Shown here one piece after another: positions 20,617 through 28,988 of a DNA stretch of 64,000 nucleotides (position 1 is the first letter of the stretch; every line of letters starts with the position of its first letter). The stretch spans positions 654,820 through 718,819 of the forward strand of contig NZ_AYPQ01000001.1 in assembly GCF_000633635.1 (NCBI RefSeq). Reading direction: 5' to 3'. Position numbers and translations under genes: made by a program. A model generated the notes under the pieces. The model was not told the origin of the DNA. It ran no database searches and saw only the letters and a list, made by a program, of their open reading frames with translations. The stretch comes from Enterococcus crotali. Lineage in GTDB: Bacteria > Bacillota > Bacilli > Lactobacillales > Enterococcaceae.

Positions 20617-21548
20617 ATGGAATTACAATTTTTAGGTACAGGAGCTGGAGTTCCAGCAAAACATCGAAATGTGAGTAGTATCGCATTAAAATTATTAGAT
20701 GAAAGAAATGCCGTATGGTTATTTGACTGCGGTGAAGGAACACAATTACAAATTTTGAAAAGTAATATCCGCCCAAGAAAAATCGAGAAAATATTTATTA
20801 CTCATTTACACGGAGATCATATCTTTGGTTTGCCTGGTTTATTGAGTAGCCGCTCATTTCAAGGTGGAAATGAACGACTAGAAATTACGGACCACCTGGA
20901 GTTGCAGAATTTGTCCGAACAGCATTGAAAGTATCGCAAACGAAACTCTCTTATGAACTAAAGTTTATCGAAATCAAAGACGAAGGAATCATTTTTTCAG
21001 ATAAACAATTTACGGTCTCTTGTTTGCCTTTAGAACATGGGATTCTTAGTTTTGGTTATCGTATAGTAGAAGCGGATCATGAAGGTGAGCTTCAAGTAGA
21101 CAAATTAGCAGCCTTAAATATTCCGTCAGGTCCGATCTATGGGAAAATTAAACGTGGTGAAACTGTGACCTTGCCTGATGGAAGAATAATCAATGGTAAA
21201 GACTTCGTCGGTGAAAAAAAATCTGGTAGAATCGTAACGATTTTAGGAGATACCAGAAAGACAAATAATAGCGTTCAACTTGCTGAAAATGCTGACGTAC
21301 TTGTTCATGAAAGTACGTTTAATAAAGATGAGGAAAAAATGGCTAGAGCATATTTTCATTCAACGAGTCATCATGCTGCCCAAGTTGCGTTGAAAGCCAA
21401 TGTAGCAAAACTAATACTGACACATATCAGTGCGCGTTATTTAACAGGTGATATTATTCAGTTAGAAAATGAAGCCAGAGAGATTTTTCCAAGGACAAAA
21501 ATCGTGAAAGATATGGAAATCGTAGAAGTACCTTTTAAAGATGAGTAA
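20617..21548 (+). CDS. rnz: Ribonuclease Z, frame broken by a 1-base deletion
   Basis: RNase Z removes the 3' trailer of tRNA precursors. [13 protein letters not shown] and the zinc motif THLHGDH (His63, His65, Asp67, His68) are read from 20617; the rest, with LGDTR and LILTHIS.RY, continues in another frame to 21548. One T missing at 20885-20886 (TT for TTT) explains the break: restoring it gives [18 protein letters not shown] and a 310-residue protein of normal length. It is followed by SDR, lapA-like, recJ and apt genes, a common order in lactic acid bacteria. Confidence 0.9.
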
Positions 21549-25256: not shown

Positions 25257-25769
25257 ATGGATTTAAAAGATTATATTGCTAGTATTCCAGATTATCCGGA
25301 AAAGGGAGTGATCTTTAGAGACATCTCCCCGTTGATGGCCAATGGAGAGGCGTATCGTGAAGCAACAAAACAAATCGTTGATTATGCAAAAGAAAAAAGA
25401 ATCGATATGGTTGTTGGACCAGAAGCACGTGGCTTTATCGTAGGCTGTCCTGTGGCGTACGAATTAGGAGTAGGTTTTGCTCCTGTTCGTAAAAAAGGAA
25501 AATTACCTCGTGAAACGATCGAAGTAACCTATGATTTGGAATACGGTACTGATACGTTAACACTTCATAAAGATGCAATTCAACCTGGGCAAAGAGTATT
25601 GATTTGTGATGATCTATTAGCAACTGGCGGTACGATCAAAGCAACCATCGAACTAATTGAAGCATTAGGCGGGATCGTTGTCGGTTGTGCATTTTTAATT
25701 GAATTGATGGATCTACATGGACGAGATAAAATTACTGGCTATGAAATTGTTACATTGATGGAATATTAA
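25257..25769 (+). CDS. apt: Adenine phosphoribosyltransferase
   Basis: A 170-residue enzyme that salvages adenine to AMP with PRPP. The PRPP-binding motif [13 protein letters not shown] and the family pieces [15 protein letters not shown] and GPEARGF are intact. GAGGAAG ahead of the ATG lies within the recJ end. The recJ-apt pair is widespread in Firmicutes. Confidence 0.95.
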
Positions 25770-25874: not shown

Positions 25875-26075
25875 CTATGGGTATTTACGGTAAATATAAT
25901 GTTGATGCTCATTCTTTTTTCTTGTATGAGAATATCGTTTCTCATCCCATAACATGAACCATATAATAAACAGAGGACTAACAATAAGTAAAGCTGAACG
26001 TAGCCCTAATGTACCCAAGAAAATACCAATAATCAATACTACAAATAATAACCCACCACGACGAACTGCTTTCAT
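25875..26075 (-). CDS. Small membrane protein under LexA-type boxes
   Basis: A 66-residue protein that I do not recognise. It has a basic N-terminus (MKAVRRGG), a hydrophobic region at about 8-44 that could be one long or two short membrane segments, and a His/Lys/Arg-rich tail. GAGGTGA stands upstream of the ATG. Its promoter contains two LexA/DinR-type boxes (26100-26113 and 26127-26140), one between -35 and -10, so it should be repressed by LexA and induced by DNA damage. Small SOS-induced membrane proteins in other bacteria (YneA, SidA) delay division; a similar role here is a guess, as it shows no sequence likeness to them that I can see. Confidence 0.7.
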   Translation of the reverse strand: MKAVRRGGLLFVVLIIGIFLGTLGLRSALLIVSPLFIIWFMLWDEKRYSHTRKKNEHQHYIYRKYP

Positions 26076-26099
26076 CCTTAATCACCTCATAATTTTTAT

Positions 26100-26113
26100 C
26101 GAACAAACGTTTG
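26100..26113. promoter_or_regulatory. LexA/DinR-type box, promoter-distal
   Basis: CGAACAAACGTTTG fits the Gram-positive SOS box pattern CGAAC-RNRY-GTTYG at all positions. It lies downstream of the -10 on the minus strand, over or just after the expected transcription start of the 66-residue protein gene. Confidence 0.7.
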
Positions 26114-26120
26114 TATAGTT

Positions 26121-26149
26121 ATTATACGAATGTTTGTTCGGTTTGTAAA
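26121..26149 (-). promoter_or_regulatory. Promoter of the SOS-controlled small gene
   Basis: On the minus strand TTTACA (26149-26144), 17-base spacer, TATAAT (26126-26121). The spacer holds a LexA-type box, the arrangement expected for tight repression. Confidence 0.75.
26127..26140. promoter_or_regulatory. LexA/DinR-type box within the promoter spacer
   Basis: CGAATGTTTGTTCG differs from the SOS consensus in one arm position (T for C). Its centre is 27 bases from that of the box at 26100-26113, and the two together form a larger imperfect palindrome with arms matching at 16 of 18 positions. Confidence 0.7.
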
Positions 26150-27976: not shown

Positions 27977-28101
27977 ATAAATTTTACTGTACAAATCGAT
28001 TAAAAATAGAGATAATTTAAAGTATTAAGACTAAAAACTCCAAATACTGTAAACGAGTAAATTACGATTTTTCTATGGTTTACAGCAAAGAAAGGGATAG
28101 A

Positions 28102-28988
28102 ATGAAGAATTTTTTCAAAAATAATTGGTCAAGCTTTGCGCTTTTTTTCGCCACGATCATTGGTATTTTTTTACTTTTGTTCTTAATCGTGCCTAAGGCT
28201 AAACCAATTCTAGGAACTGGGGCACAACAAATAGCCAAAAGTGAAACAAAAGAAGTCATCCATTACGTTGCAATTGGAGACTCTTTAACAGAAGGAATTG
28301 GGGATCTGACGAATTCCGGAGGTTTCGTACCGTTAGTTGCCAAAGATTTGCAAGAGCAGTATCATTTGAACGGTGTTCAAACGGACAATTTCGGGAAAAA
28401 TGGTGACCGCAGCGACCAAATTCTTAAACGAATCAAAAAAATGAAACCATTCAAGATGGTTTAGCAACAGCCGATGTCATCACATTGACTGTTGGCGGAA
28501 ATGATTTAATGAAAGTTATAAAAGGCGATATTTTTCGTTTAACAAAAGACTCATTTAAACGGCCATTAACAAGCTATCAAAAAGAAGTAGATAAGTTATT
28601 GACAGAGATTCGCAAATACAACACAGATGCACCAATCTATGTTTTAGGAATATATAATCCGTTCTATCTGTATTTTCCTGATATTACTGAAATGCAGGAA
28701 ATCGTTGATAATTGGAATGCTGGTACAGAGGAAATTGTTAAGGCAGAAAAAAATGCTTATTTTATTCCTATCAATGATTTACTTTATAAAGGTGTTGGGG
28801 ATGAAGTGGGGATCGTTAGCAGTGAAAATACGATGACCTCAAGTGAAGAAGTCGACATCAAAAATAATGCCCTGTATGAAGAAGACCATTTCCATCCTAA
28901 TAATCTAGGGTATCAAATCATGGCAAGCACGGTTCGCGATAAAATGGTAAAAACACAAGATAAATGGCTCAAAAAGGGAAGTGAGTGA
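28102..28988 (+). CDS. SGNH/GDSL-type esterase or lipase, membrane-anchored, frame broken by a 1-base deletion
   Basis: After repair a 295-residue protein: one N-terminal membrane segment (about 14-35), then an outward-facing SGNH hydrolase domain with AIGDSLTEGIGD (Ser block I), VGGNDLM (block III) and DHFHPNNLGY (block V, Asp and His). The break is in an A7 run at 28435-28441; adding one A gives RIKKNETIQDGLATADVITLTVGG. An AAAGGGA site precedes 28102. The YpmR-type neighbour order with a ypmS-like gene, overlapping its end, supports a Firmicutes ypmR-ypmS pair. The substrate is unknown. Confidence 0.85.

Follow-up and report, generated by a model that had tools for sequence, protein, structure and literature searches.

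The window, by which we mean the whole stretch of 64,000 nucleotides analysed here, carries on its minus strand a small gene (66 codons with an ATG start in the program-made list of open reading frames) that encodes a protein of 66 amino acids. The gene trhA/hlyIII lies upstream of it on the same strand, and apt converges on it from the other side. The gene and the elements around it are as follows.

25257..25769, plus strand: apt (phosphoribosyltransferase), the convergent neighbour, given for context only; identified from its ORF and Pfam, and part of the presumed ancestral order lexA-gene-apt-recJ
25875..26075, minus strand: gene of the 66-aa membrane protein with two predicted membrane segments (ORF, alignment, hydropathy, dN/dS)
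26081..26088, minus strand: Shine-Dalgarno sequence GAGGTGAT (from the sequence; similar by eye in most orthologues)
26100..26113, minus strand: LexA box B, CAAACGTTTGTTCG, directly 3' of the -10 element and over the expected start site (matrix; conservation)
26121..26126, minus strand: -10 element TATAAT (promoter scan)
26127..26140, minus strand: LexA box A, CGAACAAACATTCG, inside the spacer between the -35 and -10 elements, with the same letters as the recA box (matrix; comparison with recA)
26144..26149, minus strand: -35 element TTTACA (promoter scan)

A sequence-only reading of this DNA had described a TTTACA-17-TATAAT promoter on the minus strand with one LexA-type box in its spacer and a second past the -10 element, 27 bases from the first, and all of these were recovered at the positions listed above. 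The two hexamers match the promoter consensus at 11 of 12 positions, and boxes A and B, whose starts are 27 bp apart with the -10 element between them, together form an imperfect dyad. Measured against the LexA consensus CGAACN4GTTCG, the spacer box has the single mismatch that had been reported for it, while the second box, reported as a full match, is one only if GTTYG is allowed and otherwise has one mismatch. No terminator-like site was found by scanning between trhA and the 66-aa gene, and read-through from trhA is therefore possible and may add to transcription from the gene's own promoter. The leader is short, with about 25 bases from box B to the gene in most orthologues. In E. viikkiensis and E. 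devriesei (L157, L158) a leader of about 280 bp containing a repeated segment separates the box pair from the gene.

Taken one at a time these elements are common. Five promoter-like sites were found in the region against a mean of 2.9 in shuffled sequences, which is barely above chance; allowing one mismatch, the core GAACN4GTTC occurs in the window about as often as chance would have it (24 times, where 22.7 are expected), and across the genome the full box pattern shows no excess either (34 sites against 85 for a backward-pattern control). A lone box, or the promoter by itself, would therefore carry little weight. Pairs of boxes at a spacing of 24-35 bp, counted at one threshold throughout, stand at 61 of the 68 gene starts in a set of related loci, compared with only two such pairs in the other 376,286 bases of these loci. 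In a matrix built from six other SOS boxes, sites A and B rank 1 and 2 of 63,987 window positions, scoring 18.1 and 17.8 where the next-best position scores 14.4; the training set leaves out the 66-aa gene and includes the recA box of the same genome, to which box A is letter-identical, so that the rank depends in part on this identity.

The boxes also match those of other SOS genes in the same genome. Boxes with at most one mismatch stand, one each, within 220 bp upstream of recA, lexA, uvrB and the genes for a UmuC-like protein, a radical SAM protein and an SbcD/YhaO-like phosphoesterase, where domains were assigned by Pfam, the radical SAM match being slightly under the cut-off and the SbcD/YhaO name given by eye. 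Seven other SOS-type loci have matching boxes, with one box each, and the 66-aa gene has two. Palindromes of this kind also resemble the operators of other repressors, and a core pattern that is not enriched on its own would fit boxes that serve a TetR-like or some other repressor and not LexA. We regard this as highly improbable, given that box A has the letters of the recA box, that similar boxes occur at lexA, uvrB, the radical SAM gene and two Y-family polymerase loci, and that in the loci read no other regulator gene was seen by eye beside the 66-aa gene; a TetR-type operator was rejected on the ground that the box is common to the recA, lexA and uvrB promoters. The 66-aa gene is almost certainly under LexA/SOS control, whereby LexA would bind its promoter and DNA damage would induce it.

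Two observations concern the rest of the SOS set. At one locus (L056, G000:C6:207996) the earliest potential start codon of an HD-domain gene with dinB behind it is overlapped by a LexA-type box, so the dinB operon of the window genome is probably SOS-controlled. An identical box, AGAACGTACGTTCG, lies upstream of a radical SAM/HhH protein and of a UmuC-like polymerase (L065, G000:C1:454064; L073, G000:C2:151590).

Absence of the boxes upstream of orthologues had been named in the sequence-only reading as a result that would tell against it, and we found the pair to be widely kept. It is present in 38 of 38 oriented orthologues (30 + 8), with no more than two mismatches in each box and a similar promoter, and among 68 loci from Enterococcus, Vagococcus, Tetragenococcus and two Lactobacillales MAGs, found with a profile-derived pattern, it lies within 140 bp of the start in 61, or in 64 once longer leaders are allowed. 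In these counts each box was permitted up to two mismatches and the start codons of the 38 orthologues were assigned by script; the two sets overlap in species, and their counts are not additive. Seven loci at first failed the test for a pair: in three of them a longer leader separates the pair from the gene, another three keep a single box, and the last, the sole boxless locus of the 68, has none of its own, the gene lying about 28 bp behind lexA. The spacing is 27 bp in most orthologues and 28-33 bp in L024, L029 and L095, and 51 distinct promoters in which it is 27 bp give the consensus TCTTTACAAAnCGAACAAAcaTTCGTATAATAaatATACaAACatttGTTCG.

The protein itself is under strong purifying selection, with dN/dS values of 0.008-0.19 against ten relatives (two further comparisons were saturated at synonymous sites). 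Matches at E 0.01 were obtained in 40 of 60 genomes, two of them weak, and the E. ureilyticus protein is 98% identical to that of the window. Among 295 genomes of the order the family was found in 73, namely 45 of family f1 and 28 of family f8 and no other, and a sample of 398 genomes at the level of the class gave matches in 9, all from f1 or f8. There is usually one gene per genome; two f1 genomes (G088, G178) have two strong family copies each. The gene can be lost, since G033 and G232 at least, both genomes of the taxonomic family, do not have it and the orthologue of an f8 genome matches in two pieces (G189:C1:2168778-2168977), which is likely a broken copy.

In 53 of the 68 loci lexA is found no more than 1.5 kb upstream on the same strand, and 38 of these also have the convergent apt downstream; nine of the others have the trhA/apt setting of the window, five have apt only, and one is at a contig edge. 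Here lexA, apt and trhA were located by short motifs within 1.5 kb, which leaves room for an intervening gene at loci not read individually; where loci with both genes were read individually, lexA directly adjoins the 66-aa gene. The window genome has kept apt and the promoter and has lexA about 57 kb away, which we interpret as loss of the linkage, the ancestral order probably having been tkt-ynzC-lexA-gene-apt-recJ. A published account places the genes of SOS division inhibitors next to lexA in Bacillus, Listeria, Staphylococcus, Mycobacterium and Corynebacterium (PMC6851548). The 66-aa gene shares this trait of the YneA family at those 53 loci, though with lexA upstream and co-directional, and does not share it at the window locus.

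A small gene with a basic start and one or two membrane segments had been proposed, and its product does have basic residues among its first eight and two hydropathy peaks. The peaks are centred near residues 16 and 35, the trough separating them is itself hydrophobic (1.35), and the protein would appear to have two membrane segments rather than one. Three of the first eight residues are K or R in 53 of the 68 members, two in 11 and one in 4, and by the positive-inside rule the N-terminus is probably inside. The second segment is followed by WDEK and then by a variable tail, for a total length of 58-90 residues; the side on which the tail lies is less sure, because its charge varies among members, being basic in many though not all (net charge -12 to +6). 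Conserved positions are R5-R6, G17/G21/G24, P34, W39 and W43-D44, and across 20 diverse members M1, R5, W39, W43 and D44 do not vary. Neither Pfam nor NCBIfam has a family that fits the protein, Pfam finds no LysM domain in the window protein or in the 20 aligned members, and there was no plasmid match and no PADLOC family. The sole Pfam match of the window protein, to the major facilitator superfamily, scored 16.7 bits where the cut-off is 33.4 and was rejected, as were matches to SecD and other Pfam, NCBIfam and PDB entries, which were weak or below cut-off and lay on hydrophobic helices.

A protein so small and hydrophobic, encoded by a doubly boxed gene, could also be a membrane toxin like TisB or DinQ, induced by the SOS response, that would depolarise or otherwise disturb the membrane, slow metabolism and raise tolerance of damage and drugs without having a specific target in the divisome. 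Type I toxins have long structured leaders, whereas the leader here is short, and the invariant charged and aromatic residues R5, W39, W43 and D44, together with the long variable tail, suggest that the protein has a partner. We consider a toxin of this sort unlikely.

Small SOS membrane proteins such as YneA and SidA stop division. YneA is like the 66-aa protein in being small, membrane-bound, LexA-boxed and a neighbour of lexA, and two of three Listeria-type loci also have two boxes between yneA and lexA. It differs in having one membrane segment, a LysM domain on the outside and a gene divergent from lexA, whereas the 66-aa protein has two predicted segments and no LysM domain and is encoded downstream of lexA on the same strand. 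The sequence-only reading had seen no likeness to known inhibitors, and for Listeria-type YneA, the one known inhibitor compared by sequence, this stands: three such proteins gave an hhalign probability of 0.2 and no hmmsearch match.

The two kinds of gene also occur in different genomes. A LysM-like YneA-type protein divergent from lexA was found in three genomes of family f7, and no YneA-type protein was seen by eye at the other 20 lexA loci read or at 12 further ones (G047 being in both sets). Of 295 genomes of the order searched, 36 gave a YneA, each of them from f7, which we take to be Listeria, and the 66-aa family was found only in f1 and f8; both searches used the same draw of genomes, as far as the listed genomes show, and many families among the 295 show neither gene. 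Because this split follows family lines it may reflect only one or two events, and it is therefore suggestive and statistically no proof.

Other inhibitors could be compared by description. SosA of Staphylococcus aureus is similar in having 77 amino acids, no LysM domain and lexA as its neighbour in staphylococci, and differs in its one membrane segment, its predicted outside C-terminus and the cleavage by CtpA that has been proposed for it (PMC6851548). SidA and DidA of Caulobacter, which belongs to another phylum, are likewise described as small, controlled by DNA damage and acting late in division. The known analogues act late, on septal wall synthesis, and the membrane segment of YneA binds TM7 of FtsW, its LysM domain also being needed (PMC13396833); SosA needs its extended outside part.

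Relatives of the protein are found in phages. The window protein matches phrog_1270 over residues 8-58 (E 5.6e-9), a homologous phage family without assigned function to which gp12 of Enterococcus phage phiFL3A belongs, and a profile of 20 host copies aligned with one of seven distant copies over 57 columns at a probability of 99.2%. The distant copies of the phrog_1270 type differ from the host gene in that all nine examined lack a LexA box within 160 bp, and most of these nine lie, by eye, in prophage-like early operons with repressor-like, excisionase-/antirepressor-like and YqaJ-like neighbours. In the E. faecalis phages phiFL2A and phiFL3A the homologue comes after cI and the anti-repressor and before the YqaJ and RecT genes, the match in phiFL2A being in two pieces between annotated genes. 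A tblastn search of phages with one prophage-like copy gave no match, and a search with another gave 12 records, OR846632 among them. This record and OR847331 were set aside as phage evidence, their neighbours being chromosomal (recJ-apt-gene-trhA and lexA-gene-apt). Labelled Enterococcus and Listeria phages, OR846632.1 and OR847331.1 (L213, L214) look like fragments of bacterial chromosomes, and the lexA-gene-apt order of the "Listeria" record is of the enterococcal type.

Division blockers are known from the early regions of temperate phages, lambda Kil being an example. Homologues in phage early regions, and a sequence that names no target, would also suit an SOS-linked modulator of some other membrane process, such as general wall synthesis, prophage fate or a protease, and not of division as such. 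The link to lexA and the tight control would seem to point to an acute arrest function, and we think such a modulator improbable.

Our preferred reading, to which we give a probability of about 0.6, is that the 66-aa protein is a membrane effector that the Enterococcus/Vagococcus/Tetragenococcus lineage makes in its SOS response, and most likely a division inhibitor that holds the place of YneA in Listeria and Bacillus. In undamaged cells, LexA dimers on the two boxes would lie across the start site as well as the -35/-10 spacer and keep the gene nearly silent; the leak would be very low because polymerase would be barred at both places, as expected for a product that is harmful when idle. Upon damage, RecA would drive the self-cleavage of LexA, both boxes would clear, and the short leader would permit a burst of protein. 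The product would insert as a two-helix hairpin, its N-terminus probably inside, and its glycine-rich first helix and P..W..WDEK second helix could bind a membrane protein of septal wall synthesis, perhaps FtsW or a partner of it, delaying closure of the septum until repair is done. With no domain outside the membrane, the protein would be left with its membrane segments as the only means of action, and this is the weakest step of the proposal. In favour of a division brake are the seven other boxed SOS loci, the presence in this genome of boxed genes for every other slot of an SOS response, the paired boxes, the lexA linkage, the family split with respect to YneA, the phage relatives and the low dN/dS; against it are the outside parts that YneA and SosA need, which are absent here, and the fact that short hydrophobic proteins fit other roles.

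A broader proposal, which we offer tentatively and would not expect to hold in full, is that one family of two-segment membrane proteins is common to the host SOS response and to temperate phages. Enterococci and vagococci would use a double-LexA-boxed copy as a division brake instead of YneA, phages would use their early-region homologues to stop host division on induction, and the protein would act within the membrane without a wall-binding domain. On this view hosts and phages alike would take small membrane brakes of one kind from a single family, and the convergent set of YneA, SosA, DivS, ChiZ and SidA would gain a differently built case. As an SOS membrane effector the protein would be of a kind already known, but its family has neither a Pfam nor an NCBIfam model, is built differently and has phage relatives. 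No paper on this gene was found in the literature searched, outside which most subscription journals lay, nor was anything found there on how division is restrained in enterococci exposed to DNA damage or quinolones; the excerpt of PMC3998124 does not mention enterococci. Enterococci are important hospital bacteria, and the analysis offers a testable candidate gene, present throughout the lineage, for the holding of division during DNA damage.

Several genes seen in the course of the analysis are split. A ribonuclease Z-like gene of the window (named by eye; 20617-21548) is divided into overlapping ORFs at 20617-20928 and 20925-21548, which suggests an assembly frameshift or a pseudogene. The window's GDSL-lipase-like gene (by eye; 28075-28988) is in two ORFs, and its relative in L213 is one ORF of 302 amino acids. 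In L034 cinA is likewise in two ORFs, which together with the split GDSL-lipase-like gene hints at frameshift errors of assembly.
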